This document shows positions 17,287 through 52,396 of a stretch of 59,706 bases of DNA, one piece after another. The DNA is from Pseudomonadota bacterium (GTDB taxonomy: Bacteria; Chloroflexota; UBA5177), in the NCBI GenBank assembly GCA_021324655.1, contig JAJPIP010000070.1, positions 1 through 59,706 on the forward strand. Direction: 5' to 3'. A program made the translations under genes and the position numbers. The notes below the pieces were generated by a model. The model did no database searches. It saw only the letters and a list, made by a program, of their open reading frames with translations, and was not told where the DNA came from. Each line of letters opens with the position of its first letter. Position 1 is the stretch's first letter.

Positions 17287-18789
17287 TTACTCGACGTGCG
17301 CTCGACTGCGCTCGGCGGGCTGCTGCTGCAGCGTCTGCTGGATCCGTTGCAGTGCCTGCTCGATCTCCTCGTCGCTCTCTTTCGACATCGCGGATCCCTT
17401 GTAGAGCAGGTACGCGGAGCCGATAACGACGACGGCATTGCCGAGGATGTCCGACTGCCAGTTCTCGAGAGTGAGGGTTGCCCACTGCCAGATGTAGCCG
17501 GAGGCGCCGAAGACCGCAGCCGCCGCGCCGTGCTCCTGCTGCGTGGAGACGAAGTTCATCCAGCCCATCCAGGTCATCAGCGCCCAGGCAATGACGCCCG
17601 CGATGATCAAGGAGTAGGCAAGGCCGCGGTGGTGCCAGGCGTCACCGAGCACATGTCGGGAGGTCGATCCCTGCGCCGCACGGGCGCGCTCGTCGCCCCG
17701 GACCTGCCGTTCGACATCGTACGCAAGCTTCTCGATCCGTTCGTCGCCGTCCTTGGATTCGGCACTGCCCTGGAAGATGAGGTAGGCGCCCACGAGGACA
17801 AGCAGACCATCCCAGAGCAGATCGGATTGCCAGTTCGAGAACGTGTCCTCGCCCCAGAGCCAGATGTAGCCGGACGGTCCGAACAGGTCCGCCGCCGCGT
17901 GGTGCGCCGCCTGGTCACTGACGAAGTACATCCAGCCTCCCCAGGTCTGCAAGATCCAGCTCACCAGGAACAGCCCCAGGGAGAAGAGCGCAAGGCCGTA
18001 TCTCTTGAAGAACCCAGCCGTTTGCTGAGCAGATGGCGCCGGCCGCGTCTCGACGTACACCGGCGTCCCATCCGGCAGCTGCTGCTCGGAGGGGCGTAGA
18101 GCTTGTCGCGTGCGCTGCACGGATGCCTTGATCTGATCCATGCTGCCGCGCGACTCTGACGATCCCTTGTAGAGCAGGTAGGCCGATCCGATGACGAGCA
18201 CGGCGTGTCCGAGCGCGTCGGCCTGCCAGTTCATGAACGTTTGTCGGATCCAGTACCAGATATAGCCGGAGGATCCGAAAACCTGAGCGGACTGGCCGTG
18301 CTCCTGTTCGGTGGCCGCGAAGTGCATCCAGCCCATCCAGGTCATGAGCGCCCACGCCAGAACGAAGCCGCCGAGCAGGAAGTAGCCCAGCCCGTAGTTG
18401 CGTAGAGGACCGCCGCGCTCGACCGTCGCTTGCGTCCGCTGCTCCGCCTGTCGGGCGGCCTGGGGTCCACGGACCTCCCGCTCGATGTCCTGCACGATCT
18501 GCTGGACTTCCTCGGATGTGTCCCTGGATTGCTCGCTCCCTTTAAAGATCAGGTAGGCGCCCATGATCACGGCGATTCCCTGCCCCAGGAAGTCCGCCTG
18601 CCAGTTGGAGAAGGTATCAAGCCCCCATCGCCAGATGTAGCCGGAGGAGCCGAAGACATCGGCCGATTGATGGTGCAATATCTGCTGCGACCAGAAGTGG
18701 ACCCAGTCGGCCCAGGACATGAGCACCCACGCCACCAGGAAGAGGATGACGAGAGTGATCCCGAGAGAATACTTCTTCCAGAACGTCAT
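17287..18789 (-). CDS. Membrane protein of four tandem DUF6766-like domains
   Basis: A 500-residue protein built from four copies of a domain of about 125 residues: 3-128, 129-259, 260-384 and 385-500. Each copy has a hydrophobic helix, a TW.GWM/SWADW element, FG.SGYIW, NWQ.D and a second helix ending GAYLIFKGS or GSAYLLYKGS, then a charged linker. Copies 1 and 3 match best (TFSNWQ; ERE/QVRG linker), as do 2 and 4 (MTWMGWM; EQEHG; YLLYKGS), so a two-domain unit was duplicated as a block. The start is fixed by GAGGAGG six bases before the ATG at 18789. The single-domain family is of unknown function. Confidence 0.85.
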   Translation of the reverse strand: MTFWKKYSLGITLVILFLVAWVLMSWADWVHFWSQQILHHQSADVFGSSGYIWRWGLDTFSNWQADFLGQGIAVIMGAYLIFKGSEQSRDTSEEVQQIVQDIEREVRGPQAARQAEQRTQATVERGGPLRNYGLGYFLLGGFVLAWALMTWMGWMHFAATEQEHGQSAQVFGSSGYIWYWIRQTFMNWQADALGHAVLVIGSAYLLYKGSSESRGSMDQIKASVQRTRQALRPSEQQLPDGTPVYVETRPAPSAQQTAGFFKRYGLALFSLGLFLVSWILQTWGGWMYFVSDQAAHHAAADLFGPSGYIWLWGEDTFSNWQSDLLWDGLLVLVGAYLIFQGSAESKDGDERIEKLAYDVERQVRGDERARAAQGSTSRHVLGDAWHHRGLAYSLIIAGVIAWALMTWMGWMNFVSTQQEHGAAAAVFGASGYIWQWATLTLENWQSDILGNAVVVIGSAYLLYKGSAMSKESDEEIEQALQRIQQTLQQQPAERSRAHVE

Positions 18790-18993
18790 GGCTGCCTCCT
18801 CACGTGATCCTTCCCTTACGAGCCCCGTACCGGAGCGACCCCAAGCCCTGCGGCCTCGCCCCGTCATGAGCGGACACACATGACCGGAATCGAGGTACGT
18901 ACAGCAACAGACGTGCCAGAGAAGTATGCAATAATTTGTATTTATCGCGGCGGCCACGTAGAGTTCAAGGGGGAGTTGCGTCCGAGCGTGACC

Positions 18994-21402: not shown

Positions 21403-21876
21403 ATGCCGCGCAACCTGATCACGCGTCTAACCCATCTCGCATCGAGCCGGCCTGGAGGCCTGGTTCGCTGCATCGCGGTGGTAGCTGCGGTAGCCGCTGT
21501 AGTCGTCGTAACTGCCATCGTGCTTGGACGCCAAACTCCTGTGTCGGTTGACCGACTGTTGGCTCTTTGCCACACGCATCCGAAGTCCACTCTCCACGCC
21601 ACGGTGACGGGGACCATCCTGTACGGAGACACCAAGCACTACTATGGATCTCCAGCGCAGGCTCCGCTGTGCGACGACGCCTTCCGTCAATGTGTGTCTA
21701 TGGTGTTGCCGTTGCGGGGTGCTCGTCTCCACGCCATTCTCCGTTCACTTCCTCCCCCGGAGGGAGATTCAAAGGTTTCCATGGCTGGCTGGACGGACTG
21801 CGCAGCACCTCTGACAGGGGGCGACCACGGACCGCTGCGCGCCTTCAACGTGATTTCCGGTCACGCAGCGTCGTGA
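21403..21876 (+). CDS. Hypothetical protein with N-terminal membrane anchor
   Basis: A 157-residue protein with a basic N-terminus, one helix (about residues 23-43: cysteine, then an alanine/valine run) and an extracytoplasmic remainder with four cysteines that could form disulfides. GGAGG seven bases before this ATG fixes the start; an ATG five codons upstream has no RBS. No family is recognised. It is divergent from the epimerase. The next gene lies beyond a terminator, so it is probably a single-gene unit. Confidence 0.6.
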   Translation: MPRNLITRLTHLASSRPGGLVRCIAVVAAVAAVVVVTAIVLGRQTPVSVDRLLALCHTHPKSTLHATVTGTILYGDTKHYYGSPAQAPLCDDAFRQCVSMVLPLRGARLHAILRSLPPPEGDSKVSMAGWTDCAAPLTGGDHGPLRAFNVISGHAAS

Positions 21877-21968: not shown

Positions 21969-21998
21969 TTGCACCGCCGTCTGGCTGACTGCGATAGT
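21969..21998 (+). promoter_or_regulatory. Candidate promoter of the rhodanese leader
   Basis: TTGCAC (21969-21974) and GATAGT (21993-21998) are 18 bp apart. Transcription would start near 22005 and give a leader of about 150 nt that contains the structured element and terminator that follow. Confidence 0.4.
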
Positions 21999-22047
21999 AC
22001 ACATATGAACTGCCCCGCGATCGGACAGACCTGCGCGTGTTGTTGCT

Positions 22048-22137
22048 GCCGGCCCGCCGGTCCGGGGTGGTGCAGGTCTATGACCTGAACATACTGGGAC
22101 CACGAACCGGCCGGCTGCATCAGCCGGCCGGTTTTTT
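22048..22137 (+). promoter_or_regulatory. Structured leader with terminator ahead of the rhodanese gene (possible riboswitch or attenuator)
   Basis: Pairing read by eye: GGTCC (22059-22063) with GGACC (22097-22101) closes a helix that contains a perfect hairpin CAGGTC-TAT-GACCTG (22073-22087). A 13-bp terminator stem follows (22105-22117 with 22121-22133). GCCGGCC (22048-22054) can instead pair with GGCCGGC (22109-22115) inside the terminator, which is a ready-made antiterminator. The SD lies just eight bases past the T-run. No known riboswitch consensus is recognised. The terminator could also simply end the upstream transcript. Confidence 0.5.
22105..22137 (+). terminator. Strong intrinsic terminator 20 bp before the rhodanese start codon
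   Basis: A 13-bp perfect stem AACCGGCCGGCTG / CAGCCGGCCGGTT with loop CAT, followed by an uninterrupted T-run (22132-22137). It lies between the candidate promoter and the RBS of the rhodanese gene. Confidence 0.85.
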
Positions 22138-22156
22138 CATTGAGAAGGAGGACAAG

Positions 22157-23005
22157 ATGGCAATCGCGGAGACCGGCGAGAGGACAGCTCTCGTTTCGAC
22201 CGATTGGGTGGCGCAGCACCGGAACACACCCAATCTGCAGCTGGCGGAGGTGGACGTGGATACCTCCGCCTACGACACGGGACACATCCCCGGTGCCGTG
22301 GGCTGGAACTGGAAGACCGACCTGCAGCGGCATCCGGTGCGGGATATCCCGACGAAGGAGGAGTGGGAAGCGCTGCTGGCCCGCTCCGGCATCGGCAACG
22401 ACACGACCGTCATTCTGTACGGCGACAACAATAACTGGTTCGCCGCCTTCGCCTACTGGCTGTTCAAGCTGTACGGTCACGAGAACGTCCGGCTCCTCAA
22501 CGGCGGCCGGAAGAAGTGGCTGGATGAGGGGCGCGAGACGACGACCGAGCAGCCGTCCGTCCAGCCGGCGTCGTACACCGCCCAGGAACCGGCGCGTGAG
22601 CTGCGGGCGGTGCGGGACCAGGTCGCGCGGGCGCTGGACGACGCCCAGTCGTCGCTGGTGGATGTCCGCAGTCCCGGCGAGTTCAGCGGCCGGCTGCTGG
22701 CGCCGGAAAACCTGCCGCAGGAAGGGGCGCAGCGGGGCGGTCACATTCCCGGCGCCGTCAATGTCCCCTGGGCCACCGCGGTGGCGGAGGACGGGACTTT
22801 CAAGCCGCTCGAGGAACTACGCAACGTCTACAGCGGTGTGCGGCCCGAGGAGACGGTGTACACCTACTGCCGCATCGGCGAGCGCAGCGCGCATACCTGG
22901 TTCGTGCTGCGTGAGCTCCTCGGTTATCCCGATGTCCGCAACTACGACGGCTCCTGGACGGAGTGGGGCAGCCTGATCGGGGCACCCATCGAGACCGGCG
23001 CGTAG
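22157..23005 (+). CDS. Thiosulfate sulfurtransferase (two-domain rhodanese)
   Basis: A 282-residue protein with tandem rhodanese domains. The N-terminal inactive domain has [11 protein letters not shown]; the C-terminal domain has [22 protein letters not shown] and the catalytic loop [10 protein letters not shown] with persulfide-forming Cys238. CRxGxR plus this length fits thiosulfate:cyanide sulfurtransferase more than mercaptopyruvate sulfurtransferase (CGSGVTA). The start is fixed by AAGGAGG before the ATG at 22157. The upstream leader suggests expression is controlled by premature termination. Confidence 0.92.
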
Positions 23006-23195: not shown

Positions 23196-24986
23196 TCACG
23201 CGCCGACGAGCACATCCACACTGGTCCGCGACAGGCCATTCGGCGTGTAGATGAGGATCTGCAGGCGCCAGTGCCCGCCCATTCCCAGGTCGGTGAGGCC
23301 GGAGAATGAGCCGGGCGCGGTCTCTTTGAGCGACGCAACACCGGTTCCCATCACCATGTCGAGCATTGTCGTCAGGACGACGACGTGTGCCCGGGAGACG
23401 GGCGCGCCCTGGGCATTGCGGAGCGTGACGTAGAGAGTATTCGGTCCGGAGCGGTCCGGGGCGATGCGGAGGCTCGCCGTCATCCCGGCGGTGTGGGCGA
23501 CGTAGGCGGCAGGGCCGGGAGGCGCGAAACCGAGCGGGACGGGATAGTAGAACATCACCGACGTGGCGAGGAGGACGCCGACGCCCAGGACGGGATTCAC
23601 ACGCAGGAGTCGCAGCAGGCGAGATCCGTTCGCGGTACGCCAGCCCTCGAATCGCCCGCTCTGGATTGCGCGCTTGAGCCGCGGCCGCAGCACGAACACC
23701 GTCACGACGCTGATCAGCATCATGAGGCCGATGAGGAGCATCTTGATGATGAGTGCGCGCCCGTAGATGCTGTTGAAGTAGGCATACCAGGACGGAATCT
23801 GCACCTTGGCCGTGACGAATCCCGAGATCATGTAGGTCGCGACACTGGCGTATGCCAGCGGGGAGAAGCGGTCGAGGGCGCGCAGGAAGCGCGCGGGTCC
23901 GAGCGATGCACCGGGCAGGAAGAGCAGCGGGACAAGAGCCACGGCGATCGCTACCTGTCCCCCGAGCCAGAGGGCATCGGCAATGAGATGGGCCCAATCG
24001 TCGAGAATCCCGGCCGAGACCAGTCGGCTGTATGGGTCCGGTGCGGGACCGACATTGGCGGCGGCGAGGTGACCGCTGGCGGCCAGGAGGTACAGATAGG
24101 CCGCTGCGACCACGAGACTCGCCGCCGGGACGAGCGGGCGCGTCCGCTCGCTCCGTACGGTCCAGAGAAGCGCGAGCAGGAGTCCGACGAGCGCGACCAC
24201 CTGTCGCGCCGCCCACAGCCGGCCGTATTGTTCCTGGAAGAGAGAGGTCAGTGTGGACGGGGCAAGGATGCCGGCCCACCCCCCTCCAATCTGGAACGCC
24301 TGCGTCGCCAGCATGACGGTGCTGGCAATGATGAGTGCGGCGATCGTGCCGATGATGAGACGCCGCGCCCGCCGGCCGGCGCCGGCCGACGGTCCGTCGC
24401 CCGCCCCGGCAATCGGCGTCAGCACGAAGAGGAAGAGCGCGACGGCGCCGGCCCACGAGACGGCGGCCAGCAGCTCAATCCAGTGGGCGAGGAGGGCGAG
24501 CAGGGTCGTGGCATCGGGAAACGTCTGCCCGGTTCCGGTGCTGACGCCGGCGAGCGATGGTCCGGGGCCGCGGACCTTGACGCTGAAGACAAAGGAGCCG
24601 CGCAGCACGTGACCATCCACCGCGGAGACCGACGTCCAGAGGACAAGGTACGTCCCGGGATGGAGGTGTCGAACGGGGACGATGAGCTCACGGCTATCGT
24701 GGGGCGCGATCCTTCCCGTGCCCTCATTGAAGACATGGCGGTAGCGGTCCCAGACGATGGCTTTGGACGCTCCTGGACTCAGATCCTCGGTAAACCACAT
24801 CTCGATGCGCGACGGCGACCGGGACAGAAGGGCATCGGCGGGCGGATTGGAGCGGATGAGAAGGGCGTGAGCGAGGGCGACGGCCGGCATCCCGAGCAAC
24901 AGCGTGAGCGCGATCAGCAGGGCCGGTGCGAAACGACGGATCCGGAGCGTTCGCTCGGCTGGAGCAGGATGGCGATGTCGTCGCAT
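23196..24986 (-). CDS. Copper resistance fusion: CopC domain - CopD membrane domain - YtkA-like domain
   Basis: About 596 residues. A signal peptide ends ALAH, placing His40 at the mature N-terminus as in Cu(II)-binding CopC. The CopC domain (to about 140) carries SNPPADALL and the [13 protein letters not shown] Cu site. A CopD-type membrane domain of about eight helices follows (about 165-480). The C-terminal 100 residues resemble YtkA/FixH, a beta domain seen with copper delivery to oxidases. It would bind copper outside and pass it through the membrane. The start is uncertain: ATG at 24986, or TTG at 25022 overlapping the previous stop. It is the last gene of the copper unit. Confidence 0.87.
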
Positions 24987-25018
24987 GGCAGTGCGCCGCA
25001 GGCGCGAGATCCCGAGAA

Positions 25019-26011
25019 TCAATGCGGGAGGGTGGAGCGCTGGACCCAGTGCTTGCCGCCGTCGGTGCTGGCGAAGAAGTGGACGCCCCAGCTCCCCGTG
25101 TACATCACCCGGGGCGAGGAGGGAGCGACGCGTACGGTTCCCGCGTTGAAGTCCTGCTTGCCGATTCCTTTGTTCGCTCCGTGCCAGGTCTGCCCCCCGT
25201 CGTACGTTGCCATGAAACCGGTGGCCCCGACCTCAGCGATGACTTCCTTCGGATCGGAGGGAGCCACCCCGATGAACTGGATGTTCTGCGGCGCTTTGGA
25301 CAGGGTCCTCCAGGACCGGCCGTTATTGGCCGACATGATGAGTGAGAGCGGCGTGACGGCATAGGCCGTGGCGCCCGAGACCGCGACCTGAATGATCGGC
25401 TGCCCGGTCAGGCTGCTGACCCCCGTCCACGTCTTTCCATCGTTACGGCTGACAAACAGGCCGTTATCGGTTGCTGCGTACGCGATGTCCGGAGCGCCGA
25501 CGGCTACACTGGTGACCGATTGCCCCTTCAGGACGTGCGTCCAGGCTGAGCCCTGCCGCCGATAGATCCCCGCGCCGAAGGCGAGGATGACATCGGTTGC
25601 CGGATCGTAGGCGACGCCGACGGCGTTGCCCGCCGGGATGACGTGCGTCGGCGAGAACCAGTGCGCGCCGTTGTCGGTCGACTCCTGCAGCCCTTTCTGC
25701 AGAGACACACCGTAAATGGTGGAGGGCTGCGCGCTATCCAGCGCCATGGAGAGCATCATCTCGGTGTTCAGCGCGTGCCAGGTGACGCCTCCGTTGGTTG
25801 ACTTGTAGAGATGGTAATGCGTTCCCAGGTAGAGGGTGGCGGGGTTACCCGGCATGATGGCAATCGAGTGCACGTGATTCTGGCCGCCCGGGGCGAGAGC
25901 CGGATTGCGGGCCGACGTCGTCGGAGACGGATTGGCCGGACCGGTCGTTTGGGAGGAGCCGCAGCCGGCGAGGGCGAGGAGCAGAACGCTCAGAGGGAGG
26001 GCAAGCCGCAT
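25019..26011 (-). CDS. Lipoprotein beta-propeller with six Asp-box repeats
   Basis: A 330-residue lipoprotein (lipobox LALAGC, Cys17). Six Asp-box motifs mark the blades, among them YKSTNGGVTW, ESTDNGAHW, SRNDGKTW, SANNGRSW, YDGGQTW and STDGGKHW. Such sialidase-like propellers in copper clusters are usually annotated as glycosyl hydrolases, but no sialidase catalytic residues are evident; a binding or assembly role is more likely. It sits 12 bp downstream of the cupredoxin gene and overlaps the possible TTG start of the CopC-CopD fusion. Confidence 0.85.
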   Translation of the reverse strand: MRLALPLSVLLLALAGCGSSQTTGPANPSPTTSARNPALAPGGQNHVHSIAIMPGNPATLYLGTHYHLYKSTNGGVTWHALNTEMMLSMALDSAQPSTIYGVSLQKGLQESTDNGAHWFSPTHVIPAGNAVGVAYDPATDVILAFGAGIYRRQGSAWTHVLKGQSVTSVAVGAPDIAYAATDNGLFVSRNDGKTWTGVSSLTGQPIIQVAVSGATAYAVTPLSLIMSANNGRSWRTLSKAPQNIQFIGVAPSDPKEVIAEVGATGFMATYDGGQTWHGANKGIGKQDFNAGTVRVAPSSPRVMYTGSWGVHFFASTDGGKHWVQRSTLPH

Positions 26012-48907: not shown

Positions 48908-48940
48908 TAGCTCTAGTTGACGTCGTTATCCGCCTGGAGA

Positions 48941-51900
48941 ATGCCTGTGTCCGACCGTCCCTCCTACCTCGCCACCCTCCGCGACCGTGTCCTGCTCTTC
49001 GATGGCGCCATGGGCACGTCCATTCAACGACATAACCTGACGGCGGAGGATTTCGGAGGGAAGGAAGGATGCAATGACTATCTGGTCCTGACGCGCCCCG
49101 ACGTCATCGAGGGTATCCACGCCTCCTTTCTGGAGGCCGGCGCCGACGTTATCGAGACCGATACCTTCAATGCCTCGCGTCTTCGCCTCGCCGAGTACGG
49201 CCTGGCAGATCGCACGTACGATGTCAATCACACGGCGGCTCAACTGGCTCGCCGCGTCGCCGACCGTTTCGCGACGCCCGACAAGCCGCGTTTTGTGGCC
49301 GGCTCCATGGGACCGACCGGGAAGCTGCTCTCCTCGGAGGACCCCGCACTCAGCGACCTGAACTTCGACGAGTTGTCGGAGATCTTTTATGAGCAAGCGC
49401 GGGCGCTGGTCGAGGGCGGTGTCGATCTCCTCATCGTCGAGACCATGTTCGACATCCTGGAGTTGAAAGCGGCCGTGTTCGGCATCCGCCGCTATCTCGC
49501 GGAAGCCGGGCGGTCCGTCCCCATCCAGACCCAGGTCACGCTCGACACCTCGGGTCGCATGCTCTTCGGCAATGACATCGCTGCCGTCTGCACGACCTTG
49601 CGGGCGCTGCGCGTGGACGTCATTGGCCTCAATTGCGGGACCGGTCCCGATTACATGCGCGAGCCGGTGCGCTATCTGGCCGAGCACTGCCCCGCGCCGA
49701 TCTCGGTCATCCCCAATGCCGGCCTTCCCATCAACACGCCGGAGGGCGCCGTCTATCCGGCGACTCCGGACGGCGTGGCCGATCTCCTAGGCTCTTTCGT
49801 AGAGGATCTGGGCGTCAGTGTGGTCGGCGGCTGCTGCGGCACCACGCCGGAGCACATCCGTGCGATTGCCGAGCGAATCGGTACGCGAGCTCCCCGTCCC
49901 CGTGACGTCACTCTCAGCCCCTCGGTGGCGAGCGGCGTCCGCTCCGTCACCCTCCATCAGGAACCGGCGCCCCTCCTCGTCGGCGAGCGCGTCAACTCGC
50001 AGGGGAGCCGCCGCGTCAAGCGCCTTCTCCTGGCCGATCAGTACGATGCGATCGCCGAAGTCGCGCGCGAGCAAGTGGACAACGGCGCCCACGTGCTGGA
50101 TGTCTGCGTTGCGCTCACCGAGCGGACGGACGAGGCGGAGCAGATGTGCGCGCTCGTCAAGAAGCTCAGCCTCAATGTCGAGGCGCCGGTGGTGATCGAC
50201 TCGACCGACGCCGACGTCATCGCCGAAGCCCTGAAGCGCACGCCGGGACGCGCCGTCATCAACTCGATCAATATGGAGAACGGCCGCGAGCGTATCGATG
50301 CCGTCCTGCCGCATGTCCGCGACCATGGTGCCGTCGTCGTCGCGCTCACGATTGACGAGGAAGGCATGGCGCGCGAGGTGGACCACAAGGTCCGCGTGGC
50401 GAAGCGCATCTATGAGATTTCCCTGAACGAGTACGGCCTGGCGCCGGAGGATCTCATCTTCGATCCGCTGACCCTGCCTCTCACCACGGGCGATCCCGCC
50501 GAGGCGAATACCGCGAAGGCGACCCTGGAAGGGATCAAGCGCATCGAGGAGGAGTGCCCGGGTGTTCTGACCCTGCTCGGGATCAGCAACGTCTCCTTCG
50601 GCATCGCCCCGCATGCCCGTGCTGTGTTGAACTCCGTTTTCCTGTATCACGCTGTGCAAGCCGGGCTCGATCTCGCCATCGTCCATCCCAAGGACATCAT
50701 TCCCTACGCCGAGATCCCGTCCGAGCAGCGCCGACTGGCTGAAGACCTCATCTACAACCGCCGCGAGGACGCGCTCGCTCGCTTTATCGCCTACTTCGAG
50801 CAGCATGGTCCCTCTCCGGCCGAGGACGAGACGGCCAATCCCATGGAGGGCATGACCGTGGAGCAACGCATCCACTACCGGATCCTCCATCGCAAGCGGG
50901 AAGGCATCGAAGCGGAGATCGACGAGGCTCTCACCCGGCAGGACGCCGTCGGCGTCCTCAATAACGTTCTCTTGCCCGCCATGAAGGAAGTGGGAGACAA
51001 GTTCGGGGCCGGCGAGTTGATCCTGCCGTTCGTGCTGCAGAGCGCCGAGGTGATGAAGCGCGCCGTCGCGCACCTGGAGCAATACCTCGAAAAGGTCGAG
51101 GGTGTCTCCAAGGGGACGGTTGTGCTGGCCACCGTCTTTGGCGATGTCCACGACATCGGCAAGAACCTGGTGAATACCATCCTCACCAACAACGGCTACA
51201 CCGTCCACGATCTGGGCAAGCAGGTGCCGATCAACACCATTCTCGACAGGGCGGTCGAGGTCAAGGCCGATGCCATCGGGCTCTCCGCTCTGCTGGTCTC
51301 GACGTCCAAGCAGATGCCGTTGGTGGTCAAGGAGCTCGACGCTCGTGGCCTCGACACGCCGGTGCTGGTGGGTGGCGCGGCCATCAATCGCGCTTTCGGC
51401 CGGCGCATCCTCTACGTGGACGACGACCGGCGCTACGATCCCGGCGTCTTCTACTGCAAGGATGCCTTTGAAGGGCTGGAGGTCATGGACACGCTGACCG
51501 GCCCGCGGCGGGACGACCTGGTGGTGCGCATCCACCGCGAGGCCGAGGAAGAGAAGAATGGCGTGCAGCCCGAGTTCCGAACGCCCACCCTTGTCGTGCC
51601 CAACCAGTGGCGATCCGTCGCGATCCCGCAGCCGCCCTTCTGGGGGGCGCGCACCATCCGTGACGTATCGCGCGATGAGGTCTTTAAATACCTGGCGCAG
51701 CGTTCACTTTTCCGCCTCTCCTGGGGTGGCAAGGGCGTGCACGGCGAGGATTGGACGCGCCTGCTGCGCGAGGACTTCCTGCCGCGTCTGCGCCGCATGC
51801 AGCGGGAGGCGGAGTACCTCGTGCCGCGTGCCGTCTACGGCTACTTCCCCGGCAATGCCGACGGCAACGACGTGGTCATCTTCGATCCGGACGACCCAAA

Positions 51901-52396
51901 CCGCGAGATCGAGCGCTTCCGCTTCACGCGACAGCCTACCGACGAGCATCTGTCGATCGCCGATTACTTCGCTCCCATCGACAGCGGCAGTCGAGACGTC
52001 GTCTTCCTTCAGTTGGTGACGGTTGGCGGGGAGGCCACGGAGCGCGTCGAGCGGCTGCAGGCCGCCGGTGACTATTCCGAGGCGTATTACACGCACGGCC
52101 TCTCGGTGGAGACGGCGGAAGCGATGGCCGAATACGTGCACGCGCGGATCCGGCGTGAGCTGGGGCTGGAGAAGAACCAGGGGAAGCGCTACAGCTGGGG
52201 CTATCCGGCCTGCCCGGATCTCACCGACCACGCCAAGGTGCTGCGTCTTCTGGGGGCGCGAGAGGCGATCGGGGTCGACGTCACGGCCGCGTACCAGCTC
52301 CTCCCGGAGCAGTCCACCGCCGCCATCGGCACCCATCATCCCGACGCCAAGTACTTCTCGGTCATCAGCCGTCTGCAGGAACTCACGACCGCGTAG
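48941..52396 (+). CDS. metH: Cobalamin-dependent methionine synthase
   Basis: An 1151-residue full-length MetH from the ATG at 48941 (GGAG just upstream; TTG at 48917 is another start). Domains in order: homocysteine-binding barrel (zinc ligands Cys232 and Cys298/Cys299 in [10 protein letters not shown]), methyltetrahydrofolate barrel (about 340-610), B12 cap and Rossmann domain with the cobalt ligand His737 in DVHDIGKN, and the C-terminal AdoMet-dependent reactivation domain (about 870-1151, [11 protein letters not shown]). It methylates homocysteine to methionine using methyl-THF, with self-contained reactivation. It stands alone. Confidence 0.96.

Follow-up and report, generated by a model that had tools for sequence, protein, structure and literature searches.

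The rhodanese gene of this stretch is preceded by a leader that, judged from its sequence and predicted folding, is very likely a ribosome-mediated cysteine transcription attenuator, through which the enzyme would very probably be made only when cysteine runs short. A short upstream open reading frame (uORF) with a run of cysteine codons, an intrinsic terminator and a strand exactly complementary to part of the terminator stand in front of the gene, and the unit recurs before other sulfur genes. Positions (Table 1) are those of the window, the whole 59,706-nt stretch of DNA analyzed.

Table 1. Elements of the rhodanese leader and the gene behind it, in window positions
Feature	Position	Strand	Description	Basis
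Candidate promoter	21969–21998	+	TTGCAC and GATAGT, 18 nt apart; the uORF ATG follows after 6 nt	Read from sequence
Leader-peptide uORF	22005–22088	+	MNCPAIGQTCACCCCRPAGPGWCRSMT; ATG at 22005, stop codon at 22086–22088; 27 codons, 7 of them Cys; Cys10 at 22032–22034, run Cys12–15 at 22038–22049	Translation; comparable units at two other loci of the same genome
Predicted antiterminator strand	22048–22054	+	GCCGGCC; starts inside the codon for Cys15	Exact complement of 22109–22115
Predicted antiterminator, inner part	22059–22101	+	GGTCC (22059–22063) and GGACC (22097–22101) around the hairpin at 22073–22087: CAGGTC (22073–22078), TAT, GACCTG (22082–22087)	Sequence; cut-transcript fold
Intrinsic terminator	22105–22137	+	13-bp stem (14 bp counting a G-U) and U tract; arms AACCGGCCGGCTG (22105–22117) and CAGCCGGCCGGTT (22121–22133), loop CAT; six-T run 22132–22137; hairpin −27.5 kcal/mol	Terminator scan
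Rhodanese RBS	22145–22151	+	AAGGAGG; outside the terminator stem	Sequence
Two-domain rhodanese / thiosulfate sulfurtransferase	22157–23005	+	ATG at 22157; 282 aa	Pfam PF00581, 1e-39; PDB search, 7e-102

Organization of the rhodanese leader

The first-pass annotation of this DNA had described a structured leader here and overlooked its key part: the first half of that leader is a short Cys-rich ORF (22005–22088). The RNA elements that it had named are present. The 13-bp stem with six T residues ahead of the RBS was recovered by the terminator scan at 22105–22137, the nested helix GGTCC/GGACC around CAGGTC-TAT-GACCTG is found in the sequence, and GCCGGCC, said to pair with the terminator 5′ arm, is the exact reverse complement of GGCCGGC within that arm, forming a duplex with an energy below that of most shuffles (P = 0.028–0.029). 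The uORF stop codon and the rhodanese start codon are 68 nt apart, with the terminator in between.

An automatic promoter scorer placed a promoter with the same GATAGT end 6 nt 5′ of the uORF ATG, this time with a spacer of 17 nt (P = 0.022 relative to shuffles); a stricter sigma-70 scan called no promoter at this leader. With 6 nt between the −10-like GATAGT and the ATG, the messenger probably starts at the uORF, and the transcript would probably be leaderless or nearly so if the candidate promoter is used.

The nearest solved structure to the rhodanese is 3aax, which we take to be mycobacterial CysA3, and its closest solved relatives are annotated as thiosulfate sulfurtransferases. Convergent with the gene, an ORF on the minus strand (23196–25022) appears from its sequence to encode a CopC/CopD-like fusion protein.

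A model for cysteine-dependent readthrough

In the proposed mechanism, transcription would begin at the ATG (22005) or right beside it, with a ribosome trailing RNA polymerase through the Cys-rich leader peptide. With ample charged Cys-tRNA, the ribosome would get to the stop codon at 22088 and mask the antiterminator strand, so that the terminator would stop transcription. When cysteine is scarce, the ribosome would instead stall at Cys10 or Cys12; the strand at 22048–22054, together with 22059–22063, could then capture the terminator 5′ arm before the 3′ arm is made, and RNA polymerase would read into the rhodanese gene. The arrangement is that of a ribosome-mediated attenuator: the uORF lies between promoter and terminator and is rich in one amino acid that is tied to the controlled gene, and an intrinsic terminator precedes that gene.

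An exclusive antiterminator, open when the ribosome stalls and blocked when it reaches the stop codon, was found in the cut transcript but not in the full-length transcript at equilibrium. When the transcript was cut before the 3′ arm and folded, the 5′ arm was paired upstream at 0.64 with the ribosome stalled at Cys10 versus 0.09 with the ribosome at the stop codon, and the inner part of the antiterminator formed in the stalled state. In the full-length transcript, the terminator won in every ribosome state (0.96–0.98), which counts against the model and means that the switch would have to be kinetic, set by the first hairpin to form. We infer both this kinetic decision between the folds and the direction of regulation. 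Two further points count against the model: the antiterminator also formed in the cut transcript without a ribosome (0.64), and a ribosome held at the final Cys of the run would mask the antiterminator strand. Most of the other leaders described below showed the same trend with ribosome position in cut-transcript folds, many of them with a smaller contrast.

Comparable leaders in the same genome

We searched the 3.8-Mb genome, which is assigned to Chloroflexota, for CysCysCys codons followed, after 60–90 nt, by TTTTT. This pattern gave three sites, and the reversed pattern, used as a control on the same genome, matched once. The three sites are the leader described here and those of a rhodanese paralogue and a metX-metY pair; all have a Cys-run uORF and a GC-rich hairpin or terminator, each before a sulfur gene. 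The paralogue (G000:C14), which is 56% identical, is preceded by the uORF MTTMSGPAACCCTAGRCGPLQCP and the hairpin GAGCCGGCCGTCAAACGGCCGG with a T tract. At the third site (G000:C68), the uORF MTWALMCCCLGLDGIVVAEAARSH (L156:1483–1557) and a hairpin precede metX, which starts at L156:1619 (NF001209, 474 bits) and is followed by a metY-like ORF named from its sequence. This leader (L156:1483–1619) carries a Cys run and is not Met-rich, and would thus tie homocysteine synthesis to cysteine supply. Looser or longer-gap searches of the genome yielded no further convincing site, within a survey by pattern that overlooks leaders with only two Cys codons, with an interrupted run or with a different spacing.

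These sites bear on the extremely improbable alternative that the terminator is an ordinary one, belonging to the upstream transcript, and that the Cys-rich frame arose by chance. A 162-codon ORF on the same strand does end upstream at 21876, and none of the close rhodanese relatives examined from the same class or phylum has a Cys-run uORF or comparable leader, which also counts against the attenuator. However, only three sites in the genome match the pattern and all three precede sulfur genes, the complement of the terminator arm adjoins the Cys run, and the gap between the promoter-like boxes and the ATG is 6 nt.

We also considered that a metabolite-binding riboswitch (responding to SAM, sulfide, thiosulfate or cyanide) drives the terminator and that the Cys ORF is incidental. 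The terminator ahead of the gene would suit such a device, as would the stability of the leader fold: the 152-nt leader folds at −70.8 kcal/mol versus −56.1 (sd 4.3) for shuffles (z = −3.4), with 3 of 200 shuffles as good. Comparison with Rfam, which the first-pass annotation had proposed, brought no family to threshold: none of the riboswitch or leader families reached its gathering score, and relaxing the threshold returned only far-below-gathering matches, on the GC hairpin. In addition, the would-be aptamer strand is Cys-rich coding sequence, the nested helix is accounted for as part of the antiterminator, the uORFs of the paralogue and of metX lie in different RNA sequence with alike coding logic, and leaders of like logic elsewhere have the kind of uORF in common and not a fold. 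We therefore regard a riboswitch as highly improbable. Of the earlier suggestion of a ‘riboswitch or attenuator’, the attenuator with mutually exclusive folds is supported and a riboswitch with a metabolite-binding aptamer is not; the guess of a sulfur compound as the signal was a good one. A T-box was rejected. Although TGGGACCACG near 22094 looks to the eye like a T-box core, a leader of this length is too short for one, and no T-box came up in Rfam.

Two other regions of the window drew attention. A Val-Cys-Cys-Cys-Thr stretch on the minus strand (18880–18930) lies upstream of a gene starting near 18789; its frame runs open into that gene and no separate uORF was recognized. A methionine synthase (MetH)-like ORF occupies 48917–52396, with no terminator-like site just upstream and no Cys leader seen.

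Cysteine leaders precede sulfur genes in other genomes

Rhodanese relatives with a Cys-rich uORF and an intrinsic terminator were found at three Acidobacteriota loci (L017, L020 and L035) and one Chloroflexota locus (L045), phylum labels here and below being those of the metagenome-assembled genomes. At the three Acidobacteriota loci, the Cys run is directly followed by CTCTGGCG, which pairs with CGCCAGAG of the terminator arm. We ran the pattern search on the genomes of seven loci and selected by eye 13 stretches in which a hairpin adjoins a T run. In ten of them a terminator accompanies a short Cys-run uORF, and each of these ten stands before a sulfur gene: NirA-type or related nitrite/sulfite reductases (L302, L303, L304 and L306, the last judged from sequence), an assimilatory sulfite reductase (L314), a sulfate-binding protein (L311 and L313), CysD (L312), TauE and then CysD (L310), and a PF03601 protein, presumably YeiH-like (L305). 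The sulfite reductase leader (L314:133–440, Chloroflexi CFX5) consists of two units in tandem, the successive uORFs MKPTKSMHPEFCLACCCSICLT and MTAHYFTINCCCTSHPRYWCSPCV each having a terminator. Two stretches picked for their hairpin (L307 and L309) lack a Cys uORF, and no recognized sulfur gene lies downstream of them; the Cys uORF of L308 resembles coding chance, also with no recognized sulfur gene downstream. It was set aside with the chance-like uORF matches at L026, L029, L068, L151 and L259. A script run on the fetched loci recovered the same units, with extra matches that were only weak or of coding type.

The identity of these genes is informative as to the signal. Direct sensing by the nascent peptide has been proposed for copper-responsive Cys-rich uORFs, and the Cys-rich peptide could sense metal, copper or persulfide in place of charged Cys-tRNA. 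A run of four or five cysteines might bind metal, rhodanese handles reactive sulfur, and the neighbor on the other strand (23196–25022) looks like CopC/CopD from its sequence. Yet like units stand before genes for sulfate uptake, CysD, sulfite reductase and metX, which suits cysteine supply and not metal resistance, and the peptides have little in common beyond their Cys runs. Direct sensing thus seems very unlikely, and we favor charged Cys-tRNA as the signal.

Of 219 regions upstream of rhodanese genes, 6 carried a Cys-triple uORF followed by a terminator, compared with 4 of 2272 windows taken elsewhere from the same loci (Fisher P = 7e-5). The six are not independent cases: they include the two leaders that prompted the test and three related loci of Acidobacteriota, and the P value has to be read in that light. 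For each of 18 leaders, we set the duplex formed between the post-Cys region and the terminator arm against dinucleotide shuffles. The alternative pairing beat the shuffles at P below 0.04 in eight (combined P = 3e-8), a figure that overstates certainty, since the leaders, picked for uORF and hairpin and not for pairing, were chosen partly by eye (several of them) and some share ancestry. A sigma-70-like promoter ending 5–10 nt before the start codon (P < 0.05 against shuffles) was found in 12 of the 18.

Relation to known attenuators

In the trp and his attenuators of enteric bacteria, the leader peptide is rich in the regulated amino acid and an antiterminator competes with the terminator. 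The rhodanese leader shares the first property and is predicted to share the second, and differs in that the amino acid is cysteine, that initiation looks leaderless and that a pause or protector hairpin is not evident in all leaders. To our knowledge, mycobacteria are the only bacteria in which cysteine attenuation has been put to the test, and there it operates at the level of translation. Poly-Cys leaderless ORFs attenuate downstream expression in M. smegmatis according to the passages of PMC9031893 and PMC13236596 that relay Canestrari 2020, and a Cys-cluster small ORF precedes mycobacterial cysA2, Rv0815 (Shell 2015, PMC4633059). As in these cases, a short, apparently leaderless Cys-run ORF stands here before a sulfurtransferase gene, with cysteine as the proposed signal, and the promoters ending 5–10 nt before the start in 12 of the 18 leaders parallel the leaderless mycobacterial ORFs. 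Whereas attenuation in mycobacteria acts, in those passages, on downstream translation, the rhodanese leader has an intrinsic terminator and a predicted antiterminator, and the gene has its own RBS.

In Actinobacteria, Cys-run leader peptides precede cys operons and cbs, and no conserved terminator hairpins were found ahead of the mycobacterial cys operons (Seliverstov 2005, PMC1262725). Those leaders differ from the one described here: their Cys runs lie close to the stop codon, no terminators were detected, and the mechanism was left open. More similar in layout is uORFC-8-2 before cysS in Rhodobacterales, a predicted ribosome-mediated Cys attenuator with a terminator (PMC8632094), which shares the AUG-started uORF, tandem Cys codons and a following intrinsic terminator. 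It has two Cys codons, at positions 14–15, and occurs only before cysS and only in Rhodobacterales (PMC8632094), whereas the present leaders have longer Cys runs, precede sulfur-assimilation genes (here a rhodanese gene and not cysS) and come from two other phyla. No report of such leaders for Chloroflexota or Acidobacteriota was found in the part of the literature that we searched.

Cysteine attenuators are thus already known, and what appears to be new, as is well supported by comparison, is a terminator-based version over many sulfur genes in these phyla. We tentatively suggest that terminator-based cysteine attenuation may recur across phyla (Acidobacteriota and some Chloroflexota, with the translational version in Actinobacteria beside them) over whole sulfur-assimilation regulons, leaderless poly-Cys peptides and even tandem attenuators replacing a CysB/CymR-type regulator. 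If so, this form would extend over the uptake and activation of sulfate, the reduction of sulfite, sulfur transfer and metX in phyla that have been little studied, and would provide a readable cysteine regulon for mostly uncultured groups, each Cys-run leader flagging a sulfur gene. The tandem pair ahead of the sulfite reductase gene would lend itself to the study of graded control, and the cysteine signal would be directly testable by reporter in a laboratory host.

Rhodanese leaders among Chloroflexota

A strict CCCxCC pattern, run over 400 Chloroflexota genomes, matched mostly coding repeats and gave no convincing new unit, and a pattern search in the six other genomes of the same class gave no further attenuator-like site among the matches listed. 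The strict search indicates that the Cys leader is sporadic among Chloroflexota rhodaneses. At four rhodanese loci (L241, L249, L256 and L259), we observed a different common element in several large Chloroflexota genomes, an inverted repeat of the GTTGATC...GTCAAC type. It is situated some 20 to 60 bases upstream of the rhodanese RBS, just 3′ of a sigma-70-like promoter, and is perhaps an operator or a short hairpin.
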